A stretch of 56,937 bases of DNA from Candidatus Cryptobacteroides merdigallinarum (GCA_017694655.1 JADIMQ010000128.1:1-56937); one strand, 5' to 3'. Counted from the stretch's first letter, positions 15,186 to 56,937 are shown. The notes: generated by a model not told the origin, from the sequence alone. A program made the numbers and translations.

Positions 15186-16064
15186 ATGGAGCAGCCGGCA
15201 ATCATTGTGCAGAGATATGTTGACATCCTTTCGGACGCTGGGTTCAAAGCCGTGTTCGGCGATCACAGGAACAAGGATGTCCTTATTGACCTCATCAATG
15301 TCCTGCTTCCGGAAAGCAGGAGCGTGAAGGACATCTCCTATGCCACCACGGAAATCCCGGGGTTTAGCCTCTCGAACAAGAGTGTGCGGCTGGACCTGCG
15401 GTGCACCGGGGATGAAGGGTCGGAGTTCATAGTGGAGATGCAGTGCTACAGGCAGGAGAACCTGTTCAGGAGATGTGTGCTGTATTCTTCCCTGGTTTAT
15501 TCTTCCGGCAGCAGGAAAGGCGACAGGCAGGAGTATGAGCTTCCCCCGGTTTATTTTATCTGCCTGTTGAGCGGAGATGCCGAGATTTCCGGCAGGACGG
15601 GGCAGGAATGGGAAGAGCATGTGGTGACGGAGTACACTTTCAGGGAAAAAGCCATGGGCGATGTTCCGGATGAGACAATTTCTTGTATCTTTGTAGAGTT
15701 GAACAGGTTCAGGAAGCCTCTCGAGGACTGTGGGACACTGGTTGATAAATGGTGCTATGCCCTGAAGCACATCGGGACTCTGGACAGGCTTCCGGAGGAC
15801 CTTCGGGTAGAGGCGCTCGAGAGGTTGTTCCGGGCGTGCGAGATATCGAAATTCGACAAGGCGCAGAAACTAAGCTACGAGAAGAATATGATAACGGAAC
15901 GCGACTATTACAACATCATCAACACCGCGAAGAAAGACGGTATCCGGGCCGGCCTGCAGGAAGGGAAGGCTGAAGTTGCCGGAGCGATGAAAAGGATGGG
16001 CATCCCGGTGGAGACAATAATGCAGGCCACAGGACTTCCGCGCGAGGAGATAGAGCGGATATAG
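15186..16064 (+). CDS. PD-(D/E)XK nuclease family protein (Rpn/transposase-like)
   Basis: 292-residue member of the Rpn/PDDEXK_2 group, often annotated as 'nuclease family transposase'; members are recombination-promoting DNA endonucleases. I start at ATG 15186 ('MEQPAIIVQRYVD'); the track start is a weaker upstream GTG. The nuclease core shows Asp70 in 'SVRLDLRC' and Glu84/Gln86 in 'EFIVEMQ', the D...ExQ form typical of this family. The C-terminus is helical and ends in a short 'GLPREEIERI' tail seen in many paralogues. It stands alone between two minus-strand operons, flanked by a strong terminator pair downstream. These genes are frequently multi-copy and mobile within genomes. Confidence 0.85.
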   Translation: MEQPAIIVQRYVDILSDAGFKAVFGDHRNKDVLIDLINVLLPESRSVKDISYATTEIPGFSLSNKSVRLDLRCTGDEGSEFIVEMQCYRQENLFRRCVLYSSLVYSSGSRKGDRQEYELPPVYFICLLSGDAEISGRTGQEWEEHVVTEYTFREKAMGDVPDETISCIFVELNRFRKPLEDCGTLVDKWCYALKHIGTLDRLPEDLRVEALERLFRACEISKFDKAQKLSYEKNMITERDYYNIINTAKKDGIRAGLQEGKAEVAGAMKRMGIPVETIMQATGLPREEIERI

Positions 16065-41077: not shown

Positions 41078-44000
41078 ATACCGGGAAATAGAGCAACAGG
41101 GCTACCAGAGAAAAAACCATTCCTGCTATGGTCCCCACAGCGAAAGGGAACCAGAACACCTCTTTCGGGCCGTCGAACAGGAACGGCACCAGCCCGAGGA
41201 CTGTGGATATTATTGTCAGCATTATGGCGGTTATCTTGTGGTTGAACGCCCGGACATACTTCCTGATGACCGGGCGCCGGCTCTTGTCATTCATGTACGC
41301 GTTGGCAAGATATATCCCGGCGTTGACCACGATGCCGCTGAGCATTACCAATGCAGCGAATCCTCCCTGGTCGAAAATGAAATCCGTGAGACCGAACACA
41401 AGGAATACCCCGATGAACGAGACCGGAATCAAAAAAATGATTATGAACGGCAGCCGCAACGATTCGAAAGTCATGCTGCACATTGTATAGATTACGGCCA
41501 TGACTAAAAGGATGAGTCCCGCGTATTTCATTCTTCCATTCCCGTTCCCCCACCAGGATCCTGGGGCTTCCGCCTTATAGCCGACAGGAAGGATTTCGTC
41601 ATTGAAGTGCTTTACCGTCTCACCGACAAATGATCTGGACAGTTCGTAAGATCCGATGAAATCGAAGCCTGCCGATATTTCGTAGGACTGGTTTTTCTTG
41701 ACGACAGACCTTCCGGTACGCTTTTTTTCGATACTGCCGATTCCCGACAGCTTTACTGATGTGCTGTCGACAGCTGTCGGTGCATTAAGCACATGCCACA
41801 GGTCGAAACTCTCCATCTGCGAAGAACGCAATACTACAGGCGTCACTCCGTCCTGGGTCATGATATCCGGCAAGGACGTGTCGTAGAGGGTAGAGTACAG
41901 TTTCCGGTAATAATTGTACGGACTGACACCGGCAGCGGCCATCCTTCCGAAATCATAGCTCATGTTGAATTCTGTCGCGGCTACGGTGAAGCGGTCCGAC
42001 AGTATCTCAGGAGAAGAAACCCTGCGGTTGGCCGCGAGATAATTCATGAGGCTGTCAGCATAGCCCGTCAGGTCGTCGTAGTTGTACCCTGAAAGGGTGA
42101 TCCGGTGAGTCTTGAAGTCCGATATCACATTGTTGTTGAAATAGCTGTCGTTGATTCCCGCAACTCTCCATGTCGCACCTCCGAGGTTCCCCGCCATGGA
42201 TATGACTTTCGATTTAAGCTCATCCGGAAATGTAGTTTCCTCATATTCCGGCCTGACGGTTATTTCTATCGATGCGTCATCGTAAGATTGGATTTGAGTG
42301 ACAAATGTCTCTATTTCATCGAAAAGGCTGAGGTAGTTTTCCATGCTTTTCACCACCTCGTTGAGCTGCGCTACGGAGCAGCCTTCAGGCATTCCGGCAT
42401 GCACATACAGGACGTCCCGTCCCGGCTCCTGGTAGAAGTTACCCCTGTCAAGAGCCTTGTCGAACAGCGCTAACGAGGTCCCGGCCACCTTGTCTATGAT
42501 GTCCCTGTTGTCAGCGTATGGACCTTTGGATATGACTGCATTGTATATTTTCTGGAATATATTCTGCTCTTCAGGAGGAATATCCCCGGCAACTTTGTCC
42601 GGCAGCAGGAAAAGAGGAATGCCGAAAGCCGCGACAAATGCAGTGATGTACACTGCCCTGTGTTTCCTGCCCCATTTTATAAAGGCTCCGTAGGTGTGAC
42701 TCCATGCGACAATGCGCCTCCTGCGCCTGAATGACCTGGTGGCAGAAGGCTTTCTGACTGGAAATTTGTCTATGAGCGAAGGAACGAACAGGTATGCTGT
42801 CAGCAGGGCGACAGACAGGTTGATCATTATGACTTTGGCGAAGTCCTCGAGATTTGCCCTCTCTCTTTCCGGAAGCAGGATTATCATGCAGAGCGCACCT
42901 ATTGTCGTTGCCGTGGCCCCGAGAAGGGCAGGAAAGACCTTCCTGTCCCTATAGTACGAATAATGGTCCGCCATGACGATTGTCGAGTCTATGATGATGC
43001 CGAGCGAAACCGTGATTCCTGCCAGGGTGTAGATGTGGACAGGAAGGCTGAAAATATTGTAGAATACTATCGAAATGAGGATATTTACAGCAAGTGTGGA
43101 AGCGATGACGAAAAGATACCTCCAGGACCGGCTCACGGCATATACGAAAACAAGGAGAATCAGAAGGCACAGGCCTGTCCGCAGATATATCTTGTCAAGT
43201 TCGGATGAAATGTATTCCGAGGAGTCATAGTCCAATGTCGCGGAGATTTCTTTTGGGAAAGAACGCTGGAGTTCTGACATACAATCTTTTACCGCTGCTA
43301 TTGTCTTGAGAAAACTGGTGCCGTAGGATGTCTCCACGGAGAGCATGACCGTATTCAGCCCGTTCAGCCTGTAATATGACGAAGGACGGGACTCCTTGTA
43401 TCTCCAGATTGCAATATCCCTCAGGTGGATGATACGGCCATGGCTGTTCATTATAGGGATATCCCCTATGTCGTCCGACCTGCGGCATTCCAGCCTCAGG
43501 CTGACGGTCCCGTTCCCTGACCTGACCATACCGAGAACCTCCGATGAGAACCACGAGGTGAAAGCCGCATAGATACGGTCTCCCGTAATGCCGGCAGCCT
43601 TTGCCGCGTCCGTGTCGAAGACTATTTCGAGTTCATAGGGCGAGGCACCCCAGAAAGAAACCCGTTCTACTCCATCCACCGAGGAGAGCGGGATGACCAT
43701 GGCTGCATCGGCATATTTTTCTATCTGTTCTGACGGAAGTGGACTTTTGAGAATATAAGTCAGTGCCTTCCTGCTTCTGCTCCCATGGATATCCACAGAT
43801 ATGGCCGGGTATGATACTCCGTCGGGAAGGGAGCGGTAGATGTTTCTGATGCAGGAGGCTACTTCTAATCTTGCTGCCGCCATGTCGGTATTTTTCCGGA
43901 ACTGCAGGGTAATGCTGCCGGTGCCTTTTCCGGATATGGAAGAGACGGACGATATGTCGTCCAGTCCTGACAGAACACCCTCTATCTTCGAGGTCACTTC

Positions 44001-44168
44001 TGCCTCCATGACCCTTTCCGAGGCGTCTTTCCAGGTGTATGAAATATTTATCGACCGCCCTTGCACGGACGGGGCGTACTGGACATTAAGCATCGGGATT
44101 GACACTATGCCCAGCAGCGCCGCTACCGCCATGAGCAGCAGGACAGTGAATGCCGGCATCCTTTTCAT
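41052..44168 (-). CDS. RND efflux permease subunit (second)
   Basis: 1038-residue inner-membrane RND permease with the usual layout: TM1 ('AFTVLLLMAVAALLGIVSI'), periplasmic loop, TM2-6, second loop, TM7-12. The proton-relay helix reads 'LGIIIDSTIVMADHY', with a single Asp where classical drug pumps have adjacent DD, so the relay is non-canonical. Its start overlaps the stop of the first permease by four bases (ATGA). Two permeases with one adaptor recall the heteromeric MdtBC arrangement. Last gene of the NVEALA operon. Confidence 0.85.
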   Translation of the reverse strand: MKRMPAFTVLLLMAVAALLGIVSIPMLNVQYAPSVQGRSINISYTWKDASERVMEAEVTSKIEGVLSGLDDISSVSSISGKGTGSITLQFRKNTDMAAARLEVASCIRNIYRSLPDGVSYPAISVDIHGSRSRKALTYILKSPLPSEQIEKYADAAMVIPLSSVDGVERVSFWGASPYELEIVFDTDAAKAAGITGDRIYAAFTSWFSSEVLGMVRSGNGTVSLRLECRRSDDIGDIPIMNSHGRIIHLRDIAIWRYKESRPSSYYRLNGLNTVMLSVETSYGTSFLKTIAAVKDCMSELQRSFPKEISATLDYDSSEYISSELDKIYLRTGLCLLILLVFVYAVSRSWRYLFVIASTLAVNILISIVFYNIFSLPVHIYTLAGITVSLGIIIDSTIVMADHYSYYRDRKVFPALLGATATTIGALCMIILLPERERANLEDFAKVIMINLSVALLTAYLFVPSLIDKFPVRKPSATRSFRRRRRIVAWSHTYGAFIKWGRKHRAVYITAFVAAFGIPLFLLPDKVAGDIPPEEQNIFQKIYNAVISKGPYADNRDIIDKVAGTSLALFDKALDRGNFYQEPGRDVLYVHAGMPEGCSVAQLNEVVKSMENYLSLFDEIETFVTQIQSYDDASIEITVRPEYEETTFPDELKSKVISMAGNLGGATWRVAGINDSYFNNNVISDFKTHRITLSGYNYDDLTGYADSLMNYLAANRRVSSPEILSDRFTVAATEFNMSYDFGRMAAAGVSPYNYYRKLYSTLYDTSLPDIMTQDGVTPVVLRSSQMESFDLWHVLNAPTAVDSTSVKLSGIGSIEKKRTGRSVVKKNQSYEISAGFDFIGSYELSRSFVGETVKHFNDEILPVGYKAEAPGSWWGNGNGRMKYAGLILLVMAVIYTMCSMTFESLRLPFIIIFLIPVSFIGVFLVFGLTDFIFDQGGFAALVMLSGIVVNAGIYLANAYMNDKSRRPVIRKYVRAFNHKITAIMLTIISTVLGLVPFLFDGPKEVFWFPFAVGTIAGMVFSLVALLLYFPVFIPSEVRR

Positions 44169-47100
44169 TCGGATACCTCCTTTCTCCGGTATATTTCATA
44201 GTAGAGCGCCGGCACGAAAAACAGACTGACGACTGTTCCTGTAATCATTCCGGCTATTATAACCAAAGACATCGGATACTGCAGGTCGTCGCCCATGCTT
44301 CCACGCGCCAGGAACGGACATACGGACAGTATGGTGGTAAGGGAAGTCATGACTATGGCCTTGAGCCTGCGCTGTCCGGCTTCCATTATCGCCCTGAGAA
44401 GCGGCTTCCCGGCCTTGCGCAGCTTGTTTATGGTGTCTATCTTGAGGATGGAATCGTTGATGACGATGCCGCATATCACCACCAGTCCGATCAGGGACAT
44501 CAGGTTTACCGATACTCCGGATATCCACAGCACGGCAAGGGCCCCGAAAATGTCTATCACGATTTCAGACATTATTATCAGGGGCTGCAGCAGGGATTCG
44601 AACTGGGATGCAAGAATAAGATACAGGAGAGCCAGGGCAATGAGGAGGACGACTGTCATTTCTCCGGTCATTTTCCTGTTTGAAAACCATGCTCCTCCGA
44701 AAGCGACATCGAAATTGCCGTCATCATGAACGACGGACTGCACCCCGTCCATAAGTCCGGAAGGATTGTTTCCCTGATAGTGCATTTCCACCGGATAGTA
44801 GCTTCCTTCCTTTCCGGAAACGATATATTTGAGGTCGGAGCCGTATGTCTGCACGGTAATGGCATTGAGCGGGATTTCATAACCGTCCTTCTTTACGGAG
44901 GATTTCCCGACGATGCTCTCTATGTCCATGACGCCTGTCCCCAATACGACGGGCAGAGTGCTGCTGCCCTGTACTATGTCGAACAGCCCGTTTTCATTTA
45001 TCGAATTCTTCAGGACAGTCATAATATCCTGGTAGGTGACACCGTACAGAGCCATTTTTTCAGGATCAGCCACATAAACCAGGTCTTTTTTCAGCGGCAC
45101 TTCCTGGATGCCGGCATCCGGGAAGGCTGCCGCGAGTTTCCCGACAAGGGAGGTAATCTGCTCTGGCTCTATTTCCGGAGCGGCCAGTGGTCTCAGTCTC
45201 GCCACTATGTCCGCTTCCCTGGATGCAAAAACGACATCGAATATGTTCCCGGAGTTTTCGAATCCGTACAGGCTCGATGGATATGCTTTATCCAGAAAGG
45301 AGGATATGTCTTTTTTCAAGTTGCCAAGGCTTCCGGCATCACTGCATTTCATATAAAGGCTGGTCCCGGATACCGCCTGCTCTCCGCTGTGCCCGAGGAC
45401 GAACTGCTGTGTCCCGACCAGGGATGTGATGTGGTCCGCATACTTCCGTGCCGCATCCTCAATTTCCCCTGTTCTCCGCTCGTTTTCAGCGAGTGATATC
45501 TGGCTGTTCCAGTCTACTTTCAACACTGTGTCGGTATATGTAATCTCGGGCAATTTTTCTTTGGGCATCCAGACAAGGCATGCGGCAGATCCGGCTGCAG
45601 ACAGGGAAAATACGGTCCAGCCGACCCATCTGTGGCGGAAGAGCCATTTCAGTCCGTCCTCGTACCACTTCTCCGCCCGGTCGAATGAAAATTTCTCAAG
45701 CAGTGCGCTTGGCCTGAATGCCGGCTGTCTCCTGTACCAGCACCAGTAATATACAGGTATTATGGTTACAGTCACGATATAGGATGTCATCAGCACAATC
45801 GTCACGGCCAACGCCTGGTCGTGGAACAGTGCACCTGCGGTACCGCTGAGGAAAACAAGGGGGATGAACACGGCGCAAGTGGTAAGGACAGAGCTGAACA
45901 TGGCTCCGGTCACTTCTCTGGTTCCACGCACGACCGCCTGTTTCAGATTCTCGCCTCTGAACCATCTTGCCGTGATGTTGTCCGTGAGTATAATCGTGTT
46001 GTCTACCATCATGCCGACACCTATGATAAGCCCGGACAGCGATATTATGTTGATGGTAAGTCCTGCGGCATAGAATATCAGCATCGAGAATATCAGGGCC
46101 GAAGGGATGGTGAGGGCAACCAGTGCCGGGGATTTGAAGTCTCGCATGAACAGGAAGATGATCAGGCAGGCGAGGATTATTCCGGCTATGATGTTCGACG
46201 CGAGGTTGTCGATGGAGTATTTCAGGAGTTCCGTCTGGTCCCGGGTCACGGTGAATTCCACTTGTGGGTAGTCCCGGCTGAAACGCGAGACAAGATTTCC
46301 GACGCTTTTCCTCATGTCGGCCATCCTTGCGTCGCTCTGCTTTATCACGGCCATGGTCACGGCATCCTTCCCGTCGGACCTGACAAGTCCGCTGCGTTTC
46401 GCGGGATGCTCGATGACCTGTGCAATGTCCTTGACCTGAAGCAGTCTGCCGGAGACATTGATGTATATATCCTCTATGTCCTTCTTGTCTGAAGCGAATG
46501 ACTGGAACTTTACGTTGTACCGGTATTCTCCGTCCCTGATGGAAAGGCTTCCAAGGCGTATGTTGGCTTCTTCTATCAGTGATGCGAAGCTATCCTCCGG
46601 GATACCGAGACTGCGCAGGGCTTTTTCGTCCGGTATTATAAGGATTTCCGGATCGACATATCCACTCAGATCCACCATTGCCACTTCCTCAAGCTGCTCA
46701 AGCCGTTTGGAGACTACTTCCTCGGCGAAGCGGCTCATGTCGCTGAACCTGTCCGATACCGGAAAAAGGTCCCTGTCCGCATTTTCATGCAAAGGAAGAT
46801 CTTCTTTCAGGGTCATGTTTATGTAGAACACAGGAATGTCCGTTGCGTCCGACTTGAATACCTTTGGACGGTCTATGTCTTTCAGCCGGTCCATAGTCCT
46901 GTCTATTTTCTCGTTGACTTCTATGAACAGATAGTCCATATCCGACCCATGACTGAAAGAAAGTCTTATGGTGCAGCTCCCGTCCACGGATTCGCTTGTG
47001 ATATCCTCAAGGAAACTTGTCTGGATCAGTTGCTGACGCAAAGGACGGCTCACTGTCTCGTCGATTTCTCGTGCGGAAAGGTCCGGGGCTGTCACCTGCA

Positions 47101-47233
47101 CTGTTATGTATGGTATGTCCACATCCGGAATCAGGGATACAGGCAGCCTCCGGATACTGACTATACCGAGTACAGCCACTACAAGCAGAATCATGGTCAT
47201 CGTGACCGGCCTGTCCAACATTTGTTTCAGCAT
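44165..47233 (-). CDS. RND efflux permease subunit (first)
   Basis: 1022-residue RND permease, N-terminus 'MLKQMLDRPVTMTMILLVVA', followed by 'RLPVSLIPDVDIPYITVQVTAP', typical of the HAE1/AcrB-like group. TM4 carries 'IGVGMMVDNTIILTDN'; the second Asp of the usual DD pair is Asn. It starts four bases after the adaptor stop. With the adaptor, TolC and the second permease it should make a tripartite pump across both membranes. In this operon the natural cargo could be the NVEALA peptide (inference). Confidence 0.88.
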   Translation of the reverse strand: MLKQMLDRPVTMTMILLVVAVLGIVSIRRLPVSLIPDVDIPYITVQVTAPDLSAREIDETVSRPLRQQLIQTSFLEDITSESVDGSCTIRLSFSHGSDMDYLFIEVNEKIDRTMDRLKDIDRPKVFKSDATDIPVFYINMTLKEDLPLHENADRDLFPVSDRFSDMSRFAEEVVSKRLEQLEEVAMVDLSGYVDPEILIIPDEKALRSLGIPEDSFASLIEEANIRLGSLSIRDGEYRYNVKFQSFASDKKDIEDIYINVSGRLLQVKDIAQVIEHPAKRSGLVRSDGKDAVTMAVIKQSDARMADMRKSVGNLVSRFSRDYPQVEFTVTRDQTELLKYSIDNLASNIIAGIILACLIIFLFMRDFKSPALVALTIPSALIFSMLIFYAAGLTINIISLSGLIIGVGMMVDNTIILTDNITARWFRGENLKQAVVRGTREVTGAMFSSVLTTCAVFIPLVFLSGTAGALFHDQALAVTIVLMTSYIVTVTIIPVYYWCWYRRQPAFRPSALLEKFSFDRAEKWYEDGLKWLFRHRWVGWTVFSLSAAGSAACLVWMPKEKLPEITYTDTVLKVDWNSQISLAENERRTGEIEDAARKYADHITSLVGTQQFVLGHSGEQAVSGTSLYMKCSDAGSLGNLKKDISSFLDKAYPSSLYGFENSGNIFDVVFASREADIVARLRPLAAPEIEPEQITSLVGKLAAAFPDAGIQEVPLKKDLVYVADPEKMALYGVTYQDIMTVLKNSINENGLFDIVQGSSTLPVVLGTGVMDIESIVGKSSVKKDGYEIPLNAITVQTYGSDLKYIVSGKEGSYYPVEMHYQGNNPSGLMDGVQSVVHDDGNFDVAFGGAWFSNRKMTGEMTVVLLIALALLYLILASQFESLLQPLIIMSEIVIDIFGALAVLWISGVSVNLMSLIGLVVICGIVINDSILKIDTINKLRKAGKPLLRAIMEAGQRRLKAIVMTSLTTILSVCPFLARGSMGDDLQYPMSLVIIAGMITGTVVSLFFVPALYYEIYRRKEVSE

Positions 47234-47237
47234 GGCT

Positions 47238-48338
47238 TCACCGTTTTACGCTGACTTCCGATCCGTCCGCAAGATTGAGGTTCCCGGAGACTATCACGCT
47301 GTCTCCGGGGGAAAGTTCCGCCCCGCGTTCCTCGTTGGCGACCACGGCGTATTCAGCACTGTTGGCCATAAGGACGTGGACGTATGTCCACAGGGCCTTT
47401 CCTCCGGATGCCCTGAAGAGAACTTCCTGGTTGTCCCGTATCAGGACGGCGTTCTTAGGTACTACAAGCATATCAGGCACGGTACGCACTACCGTGACCT
47501 TCACGTTCATGCCGTCTACGAGGGTCCCGTCGTTCACTACCCTCGCTTTCACCGATGCCTGGCCGTTCTTGTCTATGGCAGGGTTGACTGATACTATTTT
47601 TCCGTGCAGGGTACGCGGTTCTCCGGAAAATGGCGTTACCATGGCGTCCATCCCTTTCCGGATGAAAGGATATTCAGACTCGAGAATGGTGAAGTCTACA
47701 TCGAAGCTGCTGTCGTCGATTATGGTGCAGAAAGCTTCCGTACCGCTCATGTCGTGCTCTCTCAACTTTATGTCAGCCACTTTTCCTCCGAAAGGAGCAC
47801 GGAGCACGGTGCCGGCAAGATTGAATTCTGCTTTCCTGAGGCCGTTCCATGCATCACCATAGCCGGAGCGTATCCTTGCCATCTTTTTTATATCCGCAGG
47901 GACGGATGCGGTGTCTCTTTCCGGGTAGCCGAGACCTGCAAGGACGTCGAGATAGTCAAGTTCCGCCTTTTCCAAGGCTATTCTTGCCGATTCGGTCTCC
48001 AGTTCCTGTTCCGTGGCGTCCTGGACGGCAAGTTCCGCACCTTTTTCCACCCGCTGTCCGTTTTCTACGGCTATCTCCGATATTATGCCTTGCGATTTGA
48101 AGGCCATAGAGCTCCGTGCCGCTGCGGACAGGCGTCCGTTCGCAATGAGTTCTATCTTGAAATCCTTCTTTTCAAGTCTGATTGCATCAACACTGTTTAT
48201 CTCCGGCTTGTATTTCAGCCGCGCGTTTTCCATATCTCCGCTGCCTCTGTTTCCTGTGCAGCCGGAAACAGTCATGAATATAATAGCTCCGGATACGACG
48301 TGTGTCCCGAAAAATCCTTTTATCATGTCTCGAATCAT
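47238..48338 (-). CDS. Periplasmic adaptor (HlyD/MFP family) lipoprotein
   Basis: 366-residue membrane-fusion protein linking the RND permeases to TolC. Lipobox 'TVSGC' (Cys27) anchors it to the inner membrane. Barrel-sandwich (lipoyl) halves are at 'SQGIISEIAVENGQRVEKGAEL' and 'GTVLRAPFGGKVADIKL', with an alpha-hairpin of ~60 residues between, then a beta-barrel and a membrane-proximal domain. It follows the TolC gene after a 99-base gap that holds no gene. Confidence 0.88.
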   Translation of the reverse strand: MIRDMIKGFFGTHVVSGAIIFMTVSGCTGNRGSGDMENARLKYKPEINSVDAIRLEKKDFKIELIANGRLSAAARSSMAFKSQGIISEIAVENGQRVEKGAELAVQDATEQELETESARIALEKAELDYLDVLAGLGYPERDTASVPADIKKMARIRSGYGDAWNGLRKAEFNLAGTVLRAPFGGKVADIKLREHDMSGTEAFCTIIDDSSFDVDFTILESEYPFIRKGMDAMVTPFSGEPRTLHGKIVSVNPAIDKNGQASVKARVVNDGTLVDGMNVKVTVVRTVPDMLVVPKNAVLIRDNQEVLFRASGGKALWTYVHVLMANSAEYAVVANEERGAELSPGDSVIVSGNLNLADGSEVSVKR

Positions 48339-48437
48339 CGTTGGTATTGTTTTGATATCCGTTCTCTCTTATGATGCTATGTCTCAAGACTTTGTCCTGC
48401 TCCTTAGTTTGACTTGCCGAATCTTGTCGAATTCACG

Positions 48438-49976
48438 TTATTTTATCAGTTCTTCAAAATCCACTTCTATGTCTTTCCCTTCGATGAAGTCGAAGAGTGT
48501 CAGTTGTCTTATTGCGTAATAATAACTCCAATAGCTGCTCAGGTCTCCGATGTATTTCTCCGTAGCCGTGTCGCACTCGCTTTGAGCCGTGTTCAGTTCC
48601 ATAACGGAAGCAGTGCCTCGCCGGAACCTGTCCATGACCAGCGAATACCTTTCCCGGGCTACACGGCTGGCCCTCTCGGATGCCATACACTGCTGTCTCT
48701 GGCTGTTGAACTGTCCTACAGCCGTGTAGACCTGCCTGCGGTAGTCGTTTTCAGCCTGTTCTACCTGTGCCTCTACGGCCTCCGCCTGCGCTTCTGCCTC
48801 CTTTACCCTGCCGCGCCCCAGTCCCCAGTCGAAGATAGGGATGCTGAATGTGATGCCGACCACCTCCTGGTCCACAAGGTTTTTGTATGTCTCCCGGAAC
48901 GCTGCGTCGGAGTTCGACAGTCCGAATTTTGCCCTGAACGACACAGAGGCACCCCTGTCCGCCTTGGCCCTGGCTATGTCGGATTCTGCCGTCAGTGTCT
49001 TTATCTCGTTGTCGAGCCGGAAACTCGAGTTCTTTATGGCTTTCTCCATCACCATATCGTAGTCCATCCATATATCCGGAAGATGAGGTTCAGCTACCGG
49101 GATGATTTCCATCCGCTCGTCATATCCTAAAAGAGAGTTCATCTGCATCTGCGCCTCTTTTACCTTCACCGCGGTTTCGTTTATCGAAATGCTGTCGTTG
49201 AGCATGCGCAGTTCCAGCTGCAGGTATTCGTCCTTTGTCACGCTCCCGAGTACCAGGCGCTGCGCCGCTACCGAAAACATCTGCATGGTGTTCCTGTAGT
49301 TCGACACTGCCGTGTCATGCGCCTTGCGGGCGAGCATAAGGTCGAAATAGCAGGTGACGGCGTCTATCGTGACCTGCTCCATGGATTCTATGTACGCCCT
49401 TTTGGCATACTCGTACTTTTTTGGGGAAATTTTCTTTTCCCACTTGAAGCTGTTGTATGAAAGGAGCGGCTGCTCATACTCGAAAGTCACCGGCTGGGCA
49501 TACCAGGTCTTCCCGAAGTCTGCCCCGAACTGGTCTATCCTCGACAGGTCCGTATAAAGGGATACCGTACCGCCTGTAAAGGGTAGGTTCTGGACTACGG
49601 ACAATCCGAGGCTGTTCTGCATATTGTAGTTGCTGGTGTAGACGAGTTCTCCTGTCTCGTAGTTCTGGAGCTGGCGGAGCGAGCGGTCGAAAGACGCAAG
49701 GTTCCCGTACAGGTTCAGAGACGGCAGCCTGCTTGCCTTGTAGGACCTGTATGCCCAGTAGTCCGACACGAACGATGCCTTTGCCTCTATCGCCGCGACG
49801 GAGTTGCTCCGTGCCACGTCAATTACCTGCTCCAAAGTCATTTCGCTTGTCTGCTGCGCCAGTATTTCGCCGGGAAAGGTCGCCATGGATATCCACAGAG
49901 ATAGCAGCACAGCGAGCCTGTCAGCGTAAAAATTCTTCTGTTTGTTGCAGCCTTTTATTTCCGATACAGTTTTCAT
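48438..49976 (-). CDS. TolC-family outer-membrane efflux protein
   Basis: 512-residue outer-membrane channel component. N-terminal signal region ends near 'PGEILAQQ'. Two repeated halves of long coiled helices are visible ('MTLEQVIDVARSNSVAAIEAK' at the start of the first; Ala/Glu-rich 'VKEAEAQAEAVEAQVEQAEN' in the second) with barrel strands ('VVGITFSIPIFDWGLGRGRV'). It overlaps the signal peptidase stop by four bases (ATGA), tying export machinery and peptidase into one translational unit. Confidence 0.87.
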   Translation of the reverse strand: MKTVSEIKGCNKQKNFYADRLAVLLSLWISMATFPGEILAQQTSEMTLEQVIDVARSNSVAAIEAKASFVSDYWAYRSYKASRLPSLNLYGNLASFDRSLRQLQNYETGELVYTSNYNMQNSLGLSVVQNLPFTGGTVSLYTDLSRIDQFGADFGKTWYAQPVTFEYEQPLLSYNSFKWEKKISPKKYEYAKRAYIESMEQVTIDAVTCYFDLMLARKAHDTAVSNYRNTMQMFSVAAQRLVLGSVTKDEYLQLELRMLNDSISINETAVKVKEAQMQMNSLLGYDERMEIIPVAEPHLPDIWMDYDMVMEKAIKNSSFRLDNEIKTLTAESDIARAKADRGASVSFRAKFGLSNSDAAFRETYKNLVDQEVVGITFSIPIFDWGLGRGRVKEAEAQAEAVEAQVEQAENDYRRQVYTAVGQFNSQRQQCMASERASRVARERYSLVMDRFRRGTASVMELNTAQSECDTATEKYIGDLSSYWSYYYAIRQLTLFDFIEGKDIEVDFEELIK

Positions 49977-50833
49977 ATCTTTTTCATGAACTTTCTTCCG
50001 TTCTTTCCGCCATCCGAAAACATTATTCTCGTCGCTATTCCGACGATATATTCTTCCGGGACAAGTCCTATATAGCGGCTGTCCTTGGAGTTCAAGACAT
50101 TGTCTCCGCCTAAGAAATACCAGTTTTCCATGAAGACATATTCCCTGAGTTCCTGACTACCGAGATACACTCTCCCTTTCCTGACTCGCGGCAGAATGCC
50201 TGTCTCGTATTCTATCATCCGTCCGTACAGTCTTACGGTATTTTTATCCATCGCGACTCTGTCACCCTTGCCCGGAATATACATCGGCCCGAAATCCTTT
50301 ATCGTCCATCCGTAATCCGCTGAAAAAGGATACGCTTTCCATATGCCTTTCATCCGTGCCAATGCCGAATCCGGGGTTTCTTTCAGTTCCTGCTGGTTAT
50401 CCTCCACTCCGAATACCATATCCCCGCACCGTCCGTTCCGGTAATATCCGTCTTCTATGGACACCGTATCCCCGGGACAGCCTATGCATCTTTTTGCATA
50501 GACATAGTTTATCCTGAACTCTATCTTCTTCCGTCCTTGTCCGTACGGATAATTGAACACAACCACATCTCCAGGTCTTATTTTCCTGAGTCCCGGCATT
50601 CTGAAACTTTCGACATCAGGACTCGAAAAATCGTATGAAGTGTATATCCTCGCGCCCATCAGCAGTTTGTTGACCAAGATGCGGTCGCCGGCCTCGAGAG
50701 TAGGGGACATCGACTCTCCTCCGATTCTGAACCGGTCGCATACGAATATCGGTAGGATGACGGCAAAGGCCGCCACGGCAGCCACCGTACAGGCCGTCGC
50801 TTTAAGTATCCTGTATATAAGCCGCTTCTTCAT
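49973..50833 (-). CDS. lepB: Signal peptidase I (S26), extra copy in peptide operon
   Basis: 286-residue leader peptidase with one N-terminal TM (~10-31). Catalytic Ser41 in box B 'GESMSPTLEAGDRILVNK' and general-base Lys114 in box D 'YAKRCIGCPGDTVSI'; box E 'GGDNVLNSKDSRYIGLVP' completes the active site. It is embedded between an O-antigen-ligase-like gene and TolC with four-base overlaps on both sides, so it is probably not the housekeeping copy. It could cleave the membrane leader of the NVEALA precursor at the head of the operon (inference). Confidence 0.87.
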   Translation of the reverse strand: MKKRLIYRILKATACTVAAVAAFAVILPIFVCDRFRIGGESMSPTLEAGDRILVNKLLMGARIYTSYDFSSPDVESFRMPGLRKIRPGDVVVFNYPYGQGRKKIEFRINYVYAKRCIGCPGDTVSIEDGYYRNGRCGDMVFGVEDNQQELKETPDSALARMKGIWKAYPFSADYGWTIKDFGPMYIPGKGDRVAMDKNTVRLYGRMIEYETGILPRVRKGRVYLGSQELREYVFMENWYFLGGDNVLNSKDSRYIGLVPEEYIVGIATRIMFSDGGKNGRKFMKKI

Positions 50834-52437
50834 TCCATCCTGCCGATTTTGTCTTCTACGTTTTGCCGTAGCTTCATCATAGCCCGATTTTTGGGATTCA
50901 CCTCCATTCCGAGTATTTCCCGGCCTGTCTCCAAGGCTTCTTCCCTCCTGCCCTGACTTTCCTGAAGCTCCATCAGCAGGACCAGCGGATACAGCCTTCC
51001 CGGCACCATATAATGCGCTTTCTCCAATGCTTCTGCTGCCTTGCCGTAGTTCCCTGCCGCCGCGTGGTTTTTCCCGATGATATTCCAGAACATCGGATCC
51101 GAAGATATCGTTGTGCCTTCGTAGAGAATCCCGTTGCTTTCCATATAATTGCCGGCTTTATGCAAGGCATAGCCATAGTCGTACAGGTATCTGAAATTCC
51201 AACGCATGGCCGGATAAATCCCCTCATATTCCTCTAACGCGTCCTCGTACTGCTCCATCGAAGCCCGGTATTTTGCCGTTTCCCATATTTCCTTGTCTTT
51301 CTGCCTTTCCTTGTACCGAGGCAGACATAAGATTATAAGAGCCATGACTATGGCGGCGGCCGGAGCATTGGCCGCAATGCCGGTTCTTTCCGTTCCGGAT
51401 TCCCCGGCTGCCATTGCAAACAGCGATACGACAAGTACGGTGGTCTGCCAGACAGACATGGGATATGAGAAAAATCCGAATACGGCTGCAGCCAACAGTC
51501 CGTAACCGAAAACATTCCCGGTCTTCAAAAGAACTGTAATTGCGACTGCCGTCACTGAGACCGCGAGCATAAGCCCGATGATGCCTGTCTCCATCCCGAT
51601 TTTCAGGTATTCGTTGAAAGCGTATTCGGGACATCCTGCCACCTTTACGACAGCTTCGTTCCTGTCCGCACTCCTGAAATAAGCCTCCTGCGCTTTCCCG
51701 TATGAGCCTCCAAACGTCCCGGGACCTGTCCCGGACAACGGGGCAGCTGCTATGGCCCTTGTCTCCATGTTCCAGATATGCAGCCTCCCGAGTGCCGAAT
51801 CCTTTTTCATCATGAAAACACCGAAAGACAAAACCAGAAGCAGGACAGTCAGAGATGCTGTCGTTATCTTATGCTTTCGCAGCCAGAAGCCTGCGCGGGT
51901 CTCTTTAAGGATGCACACAAGGACTGCGGAGGCGTATGCCGCCCATCCTGCCCTGCTCATCGTGGCGGGCAATACCATCAGCCCGAGTACGGCTGTCAGG
52001 ACCGGGATGCACAATGTCCGTATCCCGGAGTGCCTGTGCTGCACGGCAAAGGCAGTCGCTGTGGCGGCGGTCATGGCTATGAAGCCTCCGTAAGGGCCGG
52101 GATTGTCAAAACTTCCTGTCAGACGGAAGAGAAAGTGACCGGACGGCATCCGGCCTAAGACCTGCATGAGACCGGAGACAGATTCAGCGCAGGACCATAT
52201 ACATAAGGACAGGAAGAGCATGGGCAGTACATATTTCCTCCCGAGACTTGCTGCAAGCCGGACTACCGTATAAAGCAGCAGATACGGAAGCATATCCTGC
52301 AGGCATGCGTCCGTCACCGGCTGTCTGTTCACAACTGCCGAAAGGCAGTACATGACAAGCAGCCCAGCCAGCAGCATGTCTACGGGACTGAGTCCGTAGG
52401 GCAAGTCAAATCTATTCCGCAACACTCGAAAGGACAT
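50830..52437 (-). CDS. O-antigen-ligase-like membrane protein with C-terminal TPRs
   Basis: 535-residue polytopic membrane protein; I use the ATG complement at 52435-52437 rather than the track's TTG. About ten to twelve TM segments span residues ~15-370. Segments typical of Wzy/WaaL-type ligases are seen: 'GSFDNPGPYGGFIAM', 'ATMSRAGWAAYA' and 'GTGPGTFGGSYGKAQEAYF' in the large periplasmic loop. Residues ~390-535 are TPR-like helices ('QYEDALEEYEGIYP', 'GNYGKAAEALEKAHYMVPG'). Such proteins transfer or polymerise lipid-linked glycans. There are no sugar-nucleotide genes here, so its role in a peptide/efflux operon is unusual. Overlaps signal peptidase by four bases. Confidence 0.75.
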   Translation of the reverse strand: MSFRVLRNRFDLPYGLSPVDMLLAGLLVMYCLSAVVNRQPVTDACLQDMLPYLLLYTVVRLAASLGRKYVLPMLFLSLCIWSCAESVSGLMQVLGRMPSGHFLFRLTGSFDNPGPYGGFIAMTAATATAFAVQHRHSGIRTLCIPVLTAVLGLMVLPATMSRAGWAAYASAVLVCILKETRAGFWLRKHKITTASLTVLLLVLSFGVFMMKKDSALGRLHIWNMETRAIAAAPLSGTGPGTFGGSYGKAQEAYFRSADRNEAVVKVAGCPEYAFNEYLKIGMETGIIGLMLAVSVTAVAITVLLKTGNVFGYGLLAAAVFGFFSYPMSVWQTTVLVVSLFAMAAGESGTERTGIAANAPAAAIVMALIILCLPRYKERQKDKEIWETAKYRASMEQYEDALEEYEGIYPAMRWNFRYLYDYGYALHKAGNYMESNGILYEGTTISSDPMFWNIIGKNHAAAGNYGKAAEALEKAHYMVPGRLYPLVLLMELQESQGRREEALETGREILGMEVNPKNRAMMKLRQNVEDKIGRME

Positions 52438-52445
52438 ATATTCTG

Positions 52446-53492
52446 TCAAAGTAAAAAGCTCAAGTCGTAACGAACTATCCTGTCTTCAATTCTTTCATGA
52501 CAGTACAGGTACCCCGTACGATTGTCGAATGCCATATTGTCAATATTTTCAGTGACATCGATATCATACAGGAAATGTCCGTTCCAGTCGAATATGTGGA
52601 TCGACGTACCTTGATCCTTATTATATGTGCTGCTTATCGGCACTCCCTTATACGTGGCAAATATATAGTCTTGCGTCGACGTTACACCAGTGTAGTAATC
52701 TATATTGTCTTTCCATATCCTCTTGTATAGAATTGATTTCCACTTCTTGTATGCAGGATCCACGGCAAAAGAGAGTACCTGACCGGATTCGGTATCCATA
52801 ATGCAGAATTGAGGGAAAAGCAGCATGAATCCAGCCACTTTTCCAGAGCAGCCGTCATTTGCCAGAATGTTGCTTAAATGAGTGACATATTGTTTTCCAT
52901 CCGCCTGTTTAAACAAGCTGAATGTCTGAGATATGGCTCCATTGTTTTCGATTAAGTTAAAAACGAATTCATTGTCTTCAAACAGCATGACAAACTGTTC
53001 TTCATCGGGCATAGGCATCCATTCGAGAACGGTTGACGGCAAATCATACTCCCGGATAATGGAAGTATGTCCGGATTCGAGCGATTCATTTACGTCTACA
53101 ATATATGCTTTCCCCATGTCATATAAGTTAATGCCGGGAGTTTGAGAATTGCTTCCAGTCAAACGAGGATCGATCATCTCACCCGGGCCTCGTCCTTTAC
53201 GGATAAAAGCGCCGAGATAGTTGAATGTATTGATAGAATATGCCTTGAAACAATATTGCCCCGGGTCGGCAATTTGCTCCTCAATTACAAGAACAGAATC
53301 ATCTACGATCTGGAGATTGTAGCTTTGAAGGACTTCAGGAAACGAGAAGTTGAAAGCCGTATCGCGGATTTGCGATACGGTTACTTCCGGTCTGACTAAC
53401 TTTACAGGGACATTATATACAATTCCTGTCCTGCTGCAAGATGCAGTAAAAACAGCTGTCAGAAAAAATAAAATTCGCGCAATGCCTTTCAT
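52446..53492 (-). CDS. 6-bladed beta-propeller lipoprotein (BF3886-like) 1
   Basis: 348-residue lipoprotein of the 6-bladed beta-propeller family (DUF5128-like), found in Bacteroidales next to NVEALA peptides. The chosen ATG is five residues inside the track ORF and gives signal 'MKGIARILFFLTAVFTASC' (lipobox Cys19). Typical features: 'GAFIRKGRGPGEMIDP' and the C-terminal blade 'IHIFDWNGHFLYDIDV'. It begins five bases after the stop of NVEALA remnant B, so the two are paired on the message. The ligand is unknown; a peptide or glycan receptor is possible. Confidence 0.82.
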   Translation of the reverse strand: MKGIARILFFLTAVFTASCSRTGIVYNVPVKLVRPEVTVSQIRDTAFNFSFPEVLQSYNLQIVDDSVLVIEEQIADPGQYCFKAYSINTFNYLGAFIRKGRGPGEMIDPRLTGSNSQTPGINLYDMGKAYIVDVNESLESGHTSIIREYDLPSTVLEWMPMPDEEQFVMLFEDNEFVFNLIENNGAISQTFSLFKQADGKQYVTHLSNILANDGCSGKVAGFMLLFPQFCIMDTESGQVLSFAVDPAYKKWKSILYKRIWKDNIDYYTGVTSTQDYIFATYKGVPISSTYNKDQGTSIHIFDWNGHFLYDIDVTENIDNMAFDNRTGYLYCHERIEDRIVRYDLSFLL

Positions 53493-53497
53493 GAAAA

Positions 53498-53749
53498 TCA
53501 ATTGCAAAATGCCACAAAATCCAGTCTGTATTTTTGGGGAGTTTCATTACAGTTTGTACAGCGAGGCATCAGGTGCTTTCCTGGATTGCCGCTTTGCGAA
53601 CACATTACCCCTAAACTTCCTGATTCTCCCCTTGCCAACGCCTCGACATTGGCATTGAACAATTCATTCATGGAGTTGCTTTCGTTTTTGACGTAAACGA
53701 AAGCAGAAACCGCTGCGGCGACCTCATGATCATGACTGTGGAAGAAATG
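53498..53749 (-). pseudogene. Leaderless NVEALA peptide remnant/cassette (B)
   Basis: Not in the ORF track. Directly after the TAG of beta-propeller 2, and in the same frame, an open stretch of 83 codons reads 'VAAAVSAFVYVKNESNSMNE' then 'LFNANVEALARGESG' and a tail with four Cys (spacing C-X13-C-X2-C-X14-C). The leader half matches the intact peptide A closely, but its first ~13 residues and start codon are missing. Only an internal ATG (complement 53669-53671, 57 residues) could initiate. The tail is unrelated to that of A except for the four Cys. It is either a 5'-truncated gene or a silent cassette. Confidence 0.75.
53653..53719 (-). repeat. 67-bp direct repeat, copy in NVEALA remnant B
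   Basis: Matches 56664-56730 in the intact NVEALA gene without gaps, 61 of 67 bases by my count. It covers the leader end and the start of the NVEALA core. The copies are in the same orientation 3,011 bases apart, so recombination between them would replace the tail of the intact peptide and delete the intervening genes, while gene conversion would swap only the tail. Confidence 0.85.
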
Positions 53750-54829
53750 CTATAGTCCCGCTTTCAGCGTATCGGTATTTACGACTGCTGCTGCACCGTT
53801 ATAATGGGTGAGATATAGTTTTTCCCCGTCAAGTGACAGCCCCGAAAACCTCCGGTCCATACTGTACCGGCACAGCAGATGCCCGTTCCAGTCCATGACA
53901 TATAGCTGGTCCGGGACATCCGTACCATCTTCCTTGAACATTTCTTCCCCGGAATACAGCGCATAAATGCAGTCATCATTAGCCTGGATGTCTACAAAGT
54001 GACGATGCGGCTTCTGCAGGTCTATTCCGTCATGGCCTTTCAGCCTGTAGGCACGGGCTTCTCCGGACTTGATGTCCAGGATGCAGAATACCGGCATGAA
54101 ATACATGCCGAATACCAGGCGGGTCCTGTCGGGTTTGATACAGTCCACGTTTGTCAGAAACGTCGATGGCGACAGCAACTGATTCTCGGTCTCCTTTTTT
54201 ACGGCATTGAACAGTCCGTATTGTCTCTGCAGTGTTCCTGATTCGAGATCATACACCTGATAATCAGGAACGCCTACAAGACCATCGGAATATCCGGACT
54301 GCATGGAATTATAGACTATTATATGATTTGAATCTGTTCTGTACAGCGACATCCATGGCTGAAGCGTAGCTTTTTCCTTGCTTTCGAAACGTATGATGCT
54401 TTCGTAAACGTCGCGATTTTCAGATAAGGATTTGGAAATATTCCATACGAAAAGCTTGGTATCCATCGGGGAATATATATCCGCATATATGTCTGTGCCG
54501 TTGATATAGGTTTCTGTCAGAGGCAAGGCTGAAAGCAACTCGTTGCCCGCTCTTCCGCGCCGGCAATATTCTCCGATCAATTCTCCGCCTATCCCTGAAA
54601 TGCTGAAAAGGTGGTCTGTCCGGGATGTGGCTATGATGATACTGTCTCTTACGATACAGTCTGCCGTCATGACACCGGACAAGGTATCTTCGCCGATAAG
54701 CAGACATTCCAGAGGACAGTCTGCTTCGATATTCGTCATCGGGAAACGGAAAAAATCCCTTTCAGCCACACGTGAACATGAAATGCAGATAATCAGTGTA
54801 AAAAGGGCAAAAGCTATAACTTTTTTCAT
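53750..54829 (-). CDS. 6-bladed beta-propeller lipoprotein (BF3886-like) 2
   Basis: 359-residue lipoprotein, signal 'MKKVIAFALFTLIICISC' (Cys18). Propeller features shared with its neighbours: 'GGELIGEYCRRGRAGNELLS', 'FGMYFMPVFCILDIKSGEAR' and the final blade 'QLYVMDWNGHLLCRYSMDRR'. Twelve bases separate its start from the end of NVEALA remnant C, and its own stop runs in frame into remnant B. Paralogous to propellers 1 and 3 but clearly diverged. Confidence 0.82.
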   Translation of the reverse strand: MKKVIAFALFTLIICISCSRVAERDFFRFPMTNIEADCPLECLLIGEDTLSGVMTADCIVRDSIIIATSRTDHLFSISGIGGELIGEYCRRGRAGNELLSALPLTETYINGTDIYADIYSPMDTKLFVWNISKSLSENRDVYESIIRFESKEKATLQPWMSLYRTDSNHIIVYNSMQSGYSDGLVGVPDYQVYDLESGTLQRQYGLFNAVKKETENQLLSPSTFLTNVDCIKPDRTRLVFGMYFMPVFCILDIKSGEARAYRLKGHDGIDLQKPHRHFVDIQANDDCIYALYSGEEMFKEDGTDVPDQLYVMDWNGHLLCRYSMDRRFSGLSLDGEKLYLTHYNGAAAVVNTDTLKAGL

Positions 54830-54841
54830 AAATACAATATG

Positions 54842-55033
54842 TTAGTAGCACTGGCTTGTACTGGACATTCTATCTGAATATGGCTGTGTACATGGATATA
54901 TTTGAGGCGGACGAGTGTCATTGTTGCAATATATTCCATACCTTTGTATGCCCAAAGGGTGATACCTATAACATAATTGAGTTCCACCATCTTCAAATCG
55001 AGCTAACGCCTCGACATTTGCATTTGCATATTT
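54842..55033 (-). pseudogene. Leaderless NVEALA peptide remnant/cassette (C)
   Basis: Not in the ORF track. Starting right after the TAA of the CxxC lipoprotein and in its frame, 63 codons read 'KYANANVEALARFEDGGTQL' and then a tail with four Cys (C-X14-C-X11-C-X13-C) ending 'SQCY'. No ATG, GTG or TTG is in frame before the NVEALA motif and the whole membrane leader is absent, so it cannot be made as a normal precursor. The open frame and spaced cysteines argue against long neutral decay. Confidence 0.75.
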
Positions 55034-55468
55034 TTAATAAACAACCGGTTTTGCAAGAGAGCCATTATTGTCTACAAGCCATAAATCATAGCCTCTATTA
55101 TCATATCCGAAAGGATATTCTTCCGGCGTTTCGATTATCTTGATGCCGACAGGTAGTTCAGATAGAACATCGTTGAGCTCATTTAAATAATAATCAAAAA
55201 TATAACTATAGTTTTCATCTACGAATATGCAGCACTGCATCGTAGTGTTGCATTTTTCATAAATAGTCAGGAACTCGATTACATCTGCTATGCAGGTAGA
55301 GCAGGAGGCATCCAATAAATACAATAAAGTCTTGTTTTCAGCGGATGGTATGCCAACGGATTTTCTCATAATTTTAACTCTCTTTTCGAGAGACCTTTCG
55401 TTCTCTTGTCTACTTGAGCAAGATACCAAAATGAAAAAAAAAAGTAAAAATATTCTTAGTCGTTCCAT
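55034..55468 (-). CDS. Small lipoprotein with CSTC thiol motif (redoxin-like)
   Basis: 144-residue lipoprotein, signal 'MERLRIFLLFFFILVSC' (Cys17); the ATG complement at 55466-55468 is used. Its start overlaps the end of beta-propeller 3 by 13 bases. A thioredoxin-like strand followed by CxxC, 'LLYLLDASCSTCIADVIEFL' (residues ~50-70), then 'MQCCIFVDENYSYIF', is the pattern of the short redox/TlpA-like lipoproteins found near NVEALA genes. The usual C-terminal cis-Pro segment is not obvious. In an operon encoding four-Cys peptides it could handle disulfides (inference). Confidence 0.65.
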   Translation of the reverse strand: MERLRIFLLFFFILVSCSSRQENERSLEKRVKIMRKSVGIPSAENKTLLYLLDASCSTCIADVIEFLTIYEKCNTTMQCCIFVDENYSYIFDYYLNELNDVLSELPVGIKIIETPEEYPFGYDNRGYDLWLVDNNGSLAKPVVY

Positions 55469-56514
55469 GAAGTACAAGTCAGCTTATATAAAACCTTTAC
55501 GCCATCTTTATCATATCCGCTTGCATAAAATGTATTCTCGTCAGACGTTTCCGATATGGCATTCAGTCGCAATGGCACTATTGCCACATCGTGCAGGACA
55601 CAATCCCAGTCATATCGAAGGATGTGTGTATATGGCTTTGGCTTCTCTATAGCATTATCCTTTTGGTTTCCGACATATAAAGCATAAATATTTACATCAT
55701 CAGCGGCCAGGCTCATATATGAATATGCCCCATGATTTTTGAATGCCAGATTTTTATGATATGTTACCTTCATGTCTGTCGGACCGGTAACCTTTTTCAG
55801 ACAATTCAGGTTGAAATCGTACAACTCCATCAGAGGCTCGGCAAATGATGCAAATACTATGAGGCTGTCCCTATGATTTATCTGCATATATCCTTGGGCT
55901 ATATTGTATGTCTGGGCAAGACCATCTCTGAATTTTCTCTCGTTATAATAAAAACGAGGCTCCTTGTTGTCTATCTTCAATTGCTTGGATTCGAAGCAGT
56001 ACGGATTCATCATCAATAATTTTCCAGAATCTGTCGGATAAACGGTGATGGCTTCGAAGTTTCCCTGATATTGGCTCAAATCCTCAAGTTTATATTCTGC
56101 CCCTTCCTCTGCTAACCTGTCCATGTCTATCGATACGAACCGGCTTTTAACGAAATCATCTACGACTAACTTGTCCCCGTATAAATACGCATGACAGTTG
56201 ATTATTTCATTGGGGCCGTTCCCTTTTCTAAGACATTTTGTAATACATTCCTTTGTGTTTATATTATGGAACTCGATGAAATTGTCCGCAGAGTTTGAGT
56301 TTACCACGACAAGAATCGAATCCGCATAGACATAAAAAGAATGAGCGTGAATGAATTTCCTGGAAAAAGGGATCTCTTCATATTCCACGTCAGACACATT
56401 GTAGTCAGCAATGTCGTAATGAAAGGTTTTCACGCCTCCTGTATTATCACTATCCTGACTGCATCCTGAGATAAGCGCAGCGGCAATTGCCGCTGCAAAT
56501 AATTTACATTTCAT
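55456..56514 (-). CDS. 6-bladed beta-propeller lipoprotein (BF3886-like) 3
   Basis: 352-residue lipoprotein; the ATG complement at 56512-56514 gives signal 'MKCKLFAAAIAAALISGC' (Cys18). Propeller segments include 'FIEFHNINTKECITKCLRKG' followed by 'NGPNEIINC', and the last blades 'ADDVNIYALYVGNQKD' and 'HILRYDWDCVLHDVAIVPL'. It lies 12 bases after the intact NVEALA peptide gene, the usual peptide-propeller pairing, so it is the best candidate partner or receptor for peptide A. Confidence 0.82.
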   Translation of the reverse strand: MKCKLFAAAIAAALISGCSQDSDNTGGVKTFHYDIADYNVSDVEYEEIPFSRKFIHAHSFYVYADSILVVVNSNSADNFIEFHNINTKECITKCLRKGNGPNEIINCHAYLYGDKLVVDDFVKSRFVSIDMDRLAEEGAEYKLEDLSQYQGNFEAITVYPTDSGKLLMMNPYCFESKQLKIDNKEPRFYYNERKFRDGLAQTYNIAQGYMQINHRDSLIVFASFAEPLMELYDFNLNCLKKVTGPTDMKVTYHKNLAFKNHGAYSYMSLAADDVNIYALYVGNQKDNAIEKPKPYTHILRYDWDCVLHDVAIVPLRLNAISETSDENTFYASGYDKDGVKVLYKLTCTSWND

Positions 56515-56526
56515 AAGTTCCTGCAA

Positions 56527-56772
56527 TTAACGTTTAACCTGACGTCCATTACAAGTCAAAGTGTGACCAAATTTTTTGATAGTACAAGTCCCCTCATTTC
56601 CCTCGCACGCTTCCTTGATTATCTTCCCGTCGATTTCACACCATGTCAAAGCTTCTACATTTGCATTGAACAATTCGTTCATGGAGTTGTTTTCGTTTTT
56701 GACGTAAACGAAAGCCAGAACCGCTGCGGTGAGGAGTACTGCTCCTGCTGCAATAAGAATGGGTTTCTTCAT
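56527..56772 (-). CDS. NVEALA-family peptide precursor (intact, A)
   Basis: 81-residue small protein at the head of the operon. Residues 1-25 are a hydrophobic leader ('MKKPILIAAGAVLLTAAVLA'), followed by 'VKNENNSMNELFNANVEAL', the hallmark that names the NVEALA family of Bacteroidetes. The tail has four Cys with spacing C-X10-C-X6-C-X10-C and a basic end 'NGRQVKR', which could form two disulfides once exported. Function of the family is unknown. With signal peptidase and a pump in the same unit, secretion of a mature C-terminal peptide is plausible. Confidence 0.85.
   Translation of the reverse strand: MKKPILIAAGAVLLTAAVLAFVYVKNENNSMNELFNANVEALTWCEIDGKIIKEACEGNEGTCTIKKFGHTLTCNGRQVKR
56664..56730 (-). 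repeat. 67-bp direct repeat, copy in intact NVEALA gene
   Basis: Leader-core boundary of the intact NVEALA gene; pairs with 53653-53719 (61 of 67 bases identical, same orientation). Confidence 0.85.
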
Positions 56773-56937
56773 GTTTTTAAAATTTGAATAGTTGATAAAT
56801 TATCATAACTGCCATTGCCGGCAATTTGTTATTCAATAGTGGCTTCTACAATTCATAGAATTTTAAGTTCCTAAATACTGTCGAAATACAATTATGATGT
56901 TATCAGTTTTAATTTGCAGTGAGCACAAACCTACATA
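56773..56937 (-). promoter_or_regulatory. AT-rich upstream region of the NVEALA operon
   Basis: The 165 bases before the intact NVEALA gene contain no gene and should hold the operon promoter. I see no clear TAnnTTTG box. A perfect 12-bp palindrome, ATTGCCGGCAAT at 56814-56825, stands out in otherwise AT-rich sequence about 42 bases before the start codon and could be an operator. Confidence 0.35.

Follow-up and report, generated by a model that had tools for sequence, protein, structure and literature searches.

Leaderless NVEALA modules in a Cryptobacteroides peptide-propeller array resemble orphan toxin/immunity modules in their architecture

The stretch of DNA analysed here, referred to as the window, comprises 56,937 nucleotides of Candidatus Cryptobacteroides merdigallinarum (GCA_017694655.1, JADIMQ010000128.1:1-56937) and carries three copies of a small NVEALA peptide gene, A, B and C, each located directly 5' of its own propeller lipoprotein gene. 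Of the peptide genes detected in this genome, copy A alone is complete, while B, C and a further copy, D, are orphan modules. The orphans probably originated from the exchange of units behind a leader or from leader deletion, and we are still more confident of the orphan-module architecture of B and C as such. Both copies lack translation initiation and an export signal and keep the boundary motif, genome comparisons tie the variable part to the partner gene that follows it, and in a pair of sister species (G338 and G377) modules of this kind have been exchanged behind a constant part with the break at the motif. It is most likely the propeller that is retained, with the tail left as a remnant, displaced or in decay.

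All three copies lie on the minus strand at the positions given in the initial annotation, in the order A, propeller 1, thioredoxin (Trx)-like gene, C, propeller 2, B and propeller 3. Copy A (56527-56772) encodes 81 residues from an ATG, with a positively charged start, a hydrophobic membrane leader (56772-56662), the core NVEALT (56661-56647) and a tail with four cysteines. Copy C (54842-55033, core 55018-55004) begins with KYANANVEALARFEDGG and has a four-Cys tail and no leader remnant at all: there is no in-frame ATG, GTG or TTG upstream of the core, and the open frame is preceded immediately, and in phase, by the stop codon (TAA) of the Trx-like gene. Copy B (53498-53749, core 53650-53636) contains EVAAAVSAFVYVKNESNSMNELFNANVEALA, likewise ends in a four-Cys tail and retains the last part of a 5'-truncated leader, with homology to A from about 53721. 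Its frame directly follows the in-frame TAG of propeller 2, and an internal ATG at 53671 would give a product of 57 residues, but no start gives a membrane leader. These observations bear out the earlier claims that only A has a start and a membrane leader and that B and C keep the core and tail in an open frame with no start for a full precursor. The 67 bp at 91% identity reported between A and B are also real, with BLASTN giving 87 bp at 89.7%. That B and C cannot be expressed normally holds as far as the start is missing, the inability itself being a deduction from that absence.

A and B differ silently in four of the five codons for A-N-V-E-A, at the expected recombination break, and B is the only other copy of the A leader found in the genome. 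Only B (28.6 bits) exceeds the cut-off of 27 for Pfam NVEALA (PF14055); C (19.0) and A (18.4) score below it and were assigned by the NVEAL core, the tail architecture and the downstream propeller, and A also by the leader that it has in common with B. The partners of the A, C and B tails, propeller 1 (55456-56526, likely ATG 56514), propeller 2 (53750-54829) and propeller 3 (52446-53507, likely ATG 53492), are all intact minus-strand lipoprotein genes; propellers 2 and 3 pass their Pfam cut-off (TolB_like, PF15869), and propeller 1 falls below it with 26.8 bits. Copy D lies on another contig of the same genome (C104; L202:3460-3871, core at 3719) and is leaderless. It is joined out of frame within a truncated Trx-like gene, and its tail resembles that of an orphan in G078 (L039).

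For comparison, related arrays were gathered through the Wzy_C companion gene and propellers 2 and 3 from up to 400 genomes of the genus as well as named genomes. In these related Bacteroidales, an NVEALA core and Cys tail were found upstream of 134 of 276 distinct propellers. In 59 of 127 unique modules, one and the same module was the best partner for both tail and propeller (permutation mean 1.1, maximum 8), and tails and propellers were correlated (Mantel r 0.68, null maximum 0.05); for leaders, r was 0.08 with tails and 0.16 with propellers. Just 3 of the 80 pairs with similar leaders had similar tails. Within genomes, near-identical leaders, synonymous codons included, stand ahead of unrelated tails and propellers: 30 of 31 leader codons are shared in G243 and again in G100, 17 of 19 between A and B of the window, and in G368 182 bp at 97.8% identity lie upstream of two unrelated tails. 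Tails were unrelated in 51 of the 55 pairs with more than 80% pre-core identity. Over these 51 pairs, mean identity stays near 0.9 until the core, with 0.93 at +6, 0.65 at +15, 0.5 at +18 and 0.28 at +36, with background reached from about +27 except for one conserved Glu codon at +24, which places the break just after NVEAL. The mobile unit is the end of the NVEALA core together with the Cys-rich tail and the following propeller gene, and recombination joins it at the core, with a common genome-specific leader ahead and an unrelated tail behind.

This modularity is the part of the initial annotation's silent-cassette proposal that stood. The tails do act as cassettes, as they travel with a propeller, break at the core and differ between G338 and G377 at a leadered site; the role of B and C as donors for A was not supported. 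That B and C are maintained donors recombining into the A site, in a programmed or selected switch of peptides, gains from the exchangeability of the modules, from a core that supplies homology at the join and from orphans of one genome being leadered in another. It is nevertheless unlikely. A DNA-level recombination site at the core was considered and rejected, since codons vary between genomes and no universal site exists; no recombinase was identified, although none was searched for by profile; and copies in the same orientation would swap by conversion or deletion rather than inversion. A broader version, in which NVEALA arrays form a recombining repertoire and leaderless modules are a reusable stock loaded behind a single expressed leader at the core, appears scarcely more probable.

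The comparison between G338 and G377, which share about 95% DNA identity, illustrates how orphans can form. In module 1, 380 bp covering the end of the upstream gene, the leader and the core are 96.3% identical and are then followed by an unrelated tail and propeller, with homology returning within the leader of module 2. The right-hand join in G338 has deleted the start codon of module 2. This is a swap of tail and propeller behind a fixed leader, and a leaderless module can be the scar of such a swap. The strain comparison called for in the initial annotation was thus answered by half: at the leadered site the two sister species carry different tails, and no donor copy was detected for this single resolved swap, neither the incoming nor the outgoing module having a near copy in the other genome of the pair (both assemblies are incomplete). 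The source would therefore be foreign DNA or lie in unassembled sequence. Module 3 has a tail and propeller with 95.8% identity over 1368 bp; its leader is complete in G377, whereas 12 bp take the place of about 157 bp of spacer and leader in G338. As the sister species keeps its leader at the same place, leader loss occurs without donation, and it can be either an in-place deletion or a swap scar. The 12-bp filler (AATAATGGAGAA; L197, minus strand 9594-9606) resembles TAATGGAGAA, which follows the core of a neighbouring module (minus strand, just after 3523), and a templated join is possible. Other close pairs (L099/L111, L121/L135 and G143/G116) have unchanged modules, so swaps are not constant. 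G395 and G143 share 99.4% identity in tail and propeller and only 87% in the leader, which two single-base deletions break in G395. At this locus (L186, core 172, in G395; L122, core 159) the core-phase frame of G395 extends back to an upstream signal peptide (MRKFILLLLLALLSVSNPIYA).

Leader loss is recurrent. Of the 134 modules, 115 are leadered and about 19 lack a working leader, three of these (L211, L206 and L130) being uncertain calls; five apparent leaderless copies (L101, L164, L087, L108 and L208) were excluded because they lay at contig ends or the scanned stretch was too short. The lesions comprise full deletion, 5' truncation, frameshift and a single in-frame stop, and the several kinds recur across many genomes. 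The reverse, a broken tail behind an intact leader, is rare, with L069 the clear case. This asymmetry is suggestive and at the same time exposed to detection bias, because orphan detection requires the core. Side by side with these modules, a stop-bearing copy was seen in an isolate of Parabacteroides massiliensis (L118:3269-3544), whose NVEALA leader is intact but for an in-frame TAA directly 5' of the core and whose tail is open; no propeller intervenes between it and the next NVEALA gene, and it is outside the 19. In G114, tandem GGCAGATTTGCAATCTGCC-like units lie upstream of an orphan core (L041, about 15380-15520).

Perhaps B and C are simply dying peptide genes with deleted leaders, their tails without a role and their propellers kept for another reason or bound to follow. 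The initial annotation named such decay of former peptide-propeller pairs as its alternative, and we give it a little less than an even chance. It agrees with the loss of the module 3 leader in place in G338, with the truncation of the Trx-like gene at the C junction and with orphans that carry a frameshift or stop (in G078, G114 at 5671, G338 at 8424 and P. massiliensis at 3379). It also accounts well for B. The B tail family is leadered in G377, G100, G368, G254 and G310 and leaderless in G338 and G012, and the non-synonymous divergence (dN) of the B tail from its relatives is 0.44-0.52 compared to 0.22-0.36 among those relatives, while the propeller behind it is not unusually divergent. B therefore looks like an older orphan with a drifting tail, even though all four Cys are retained; an open frame over 50 codons is by itself weak evidence of constraint.

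Decay fits C less well. The C module has an intact leadered homologue in G114, with the tail about 73-79% and the propeller 69-71% identical (69% for propeller 2 against the G114 propeller behind the same tail). The C tail has a dN of 0.15 and a synonymous divergence (dS) of 1.3, a dN/dS of about 0.11, and is as constrained as propeller 2 (dN 0.20, dS 1.16, dN/dS about 0.18). Since dN would be much higher in a tail long free of constraint, either the silencing of C is recent or constraint persists. Of the two tails for which the initial annotation proposed a dN/dS test, that of C is constrained and that of B accelerated. The Trx-like lipoprotein gene upstream of C (55034-55477) lacks the C-terminal end found in its relatives and stops where C starts, in keeping with a join or deletion at this point. 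Across the survey, conservation of the tail relative to its own propeller does not differ overall between orphan and leadered modules (+0.12 for each). Further points against decay by itself are the excess of modules with a leader lesion and an intact tail, and the tail swaps behind a fixed leader, which it leaves unexplained. Decay and the explanation that we prefer, orphaning by exchange or leader deletion, overlap, since both start from former pairs that lost their leader, and the confidence placed in one does not exclude the other. Between donation by B and C and decay or displacement of their tails, the latter is at least as likely.

Alternatively, B and C could be translated as they are, with initiation inside the frame, at a non-standard start or through coupling to the preceding stop codon, as leaderless peptides with a role of their own. 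The in-frame stops of the upstream genes lie 15 and 99 nt away and the internal ATG of B would serve this purpose, but C offers no start before its core, orphan junctions in other species differ in frame and position, and with the leader the export signal is gone; we consider it very improbable. An assembly or sequencing error is the least probable source of the leaderless copies. The window is a single contig (C102) of a metagenome-assembled genome (MAG), with no reads as a check, which would allow for such an error. Varied leader lesions, however, recur in many genomes, including the in-frame stop in the P. massiliensis isolate, and the C junction also involves a truncated neighbouring gene.

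Several points weigh against the picture of A as the sole expressed gene of an array shaped by exchange. The contig ends 165 bp upstream of the start of A and belongs to a MAG that is 85% complete, and the Cryptobacteroides-type genomes compared are incomplete MAGs throughout. No A-module homologue with a similar tail was found in the survey, so A is not placed in any tail family. Losses that removed the core as well are invisible to the survey.

In the mechanism that we propose, the leadered peptide would be exported via its membrane leader, and the dedicated S26 peptidase encoded nearby would cleave it at NVEALA, whose end has the look of a signal-peptidase site. Disulphides would form in the Cys-rich tail, and the mature tail would act outside the cell; the propeller lipoprotein would be the cognate partner of this tail, most probably with an immunity or binding function. 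A new block of tail and propeller entering behind the leader, or deletion of the leader, would orphan the older unit. Production of its peptide would then cease, whereas operon transcription would still cover its propeller, which would be retained; its tail would be a remnant open to occasional reuse. The most likely setting is a competition system in which propellers stay as immunity or binding partners after the peptide has been switched off. Taken separately, retention of the propeller as such a partner has roughly even chances, and reuse of orphan tails as donors is unlikely.

Propeller 2, modelled with 67 relatives after a single-sequence fold had proved poor, is confidently predicted as a beta-propeller (predicted local distance difference test 91.8). 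Among the many propellers that the model resembles are Bacteroides lipoproteins such as BT1954 and a DUF4221 protein. This predicted fold supports a binding role, and leaves the choice between immunity protein and receptor undecided. A TAnnTTTG promoter of the Bacteroidetes type occurs before leadered and leaderless copies alike and does not discriminate between them, a scan for sigma-70-type promoters gave chance level, and libraries of anti-phage defence systems gave no match. A Bacteroidetes -7-like element, TAGGTTTG, lies at 56926-56933 on the minus strand, about 155 nt upstream of the A start at the extreme end of the contig.

Downstream of propeller 3, the minus strand continues with a Wzy_C/O-antigen-ligase-like membrane protein with TPR (50830-52449) and the S26 signal peptidase (49973-50833), both conserved companions of NVEALA arrays and the latter the candidate cutter of the leader. 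They are followed, within 41052-49976, by TolC (49976-48438), a membrane fusion protein (48338-47238) and two RND pumps (47233-44165 and 44168-41052), in an order that is kept beside other NVEALA arrays. This gene set also recurs beside NVEALA copies in other genomes.

With these results the uncharacterised NVEALA peptides gain a testable logic, in which tail and propeller would form a cognate, exchangeable pair and the leader a shared carrier. Concrete tail/propeller pairs are now named for work on binding and protection, and the pattern suggests that NVEALA operons are competition or recognition systems. The exchange of tail-plus-partner blocks behind a common head is akin to the toxin/immunity block swaps of competing bacteria, and an orphan-module design described for large toxins now also covers Bacteroidales peptides of about 45 residues. 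The open literature searched contains no mention of NVEALA, of exchange among its modules or of its leaderless members, with subscription papers and preprints outside that search. Pfam describes the families of A-C and their propellers (NVEALA, PF14055; TolB_like, PF15869) and covers the protein family alone.

Among known systems, silent-cassette antigenic variation of the pilS/pilE type has an expression-site sequence traceable to a silent copy of its own genome; for the one swap resolved here, no near copy turned up in either of the two incomplete genomes. An invertase-driven shufflon is not matched by copies that all lie on one strand and have no universal core site, with no profile search made for a recombinase. 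A closer likeness is found in the orphan immunity arrays of the type VI secretion system of Vibrio cholerae, where older partner genes remain in an array once blocks have been inserted behind a constant part (PMC5361080). The right-hand join in G338, inside the next leader, fits this model; the old effector is mostly lost there, whereas the old tail is usually still intact here. In Neisseria, silent mafB-CT/mafI cassettes are C-terminal, have no initiation codon and are each followed by an immunity gene (PMC4287609), and in being start-less C-terminal cassettes with a partner gene they are like B and C, although MafB proteins are large secreted toxins with DUF1020, unrelated in sequence and secretion.

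The orphan cdiA-CT/cdiI modules of contact-dependent inhibition (CDI) show the same plan. They lie downstream of the full copy, have no translation initiation, keep the short VENN motif and are followed by their own partner gene (Poole et al. 2011, PMC3150448); homology to relatives begins at one motif and ends at the next, and the orphan immunity protein is expressed while the orphan toxin is not (PMC3150448). Loss of initiation, a retained motif (NVEALA in place of VENN), a retained partner and homology from motif to motif are common to both. The carriers differ, CdiA being a very large protein of two-partner secretion and the NVEALA precursor having about 80 residues and a membrane leader. 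The partner here is a beta-propeller lipoprotein of 350 residues with a putative immunity role and no visible sequence relationship, and the neighbours are propellers, Trx-like, Wzy_C, S26 peptidase and TolC/membrane fusion/RND genes, with no CdiB transporter or CdiA filamentous protein among them. As there is no relation by sequence to CDI, Rhs or MafB and a toxin/immunity role is putative, the array is orphan-module-like in architecture rather than a member of these systems. It is in this architecture, by analogy, that B and C are like the orphans of CdiA-CT/CdiI, Rhs and MafB.

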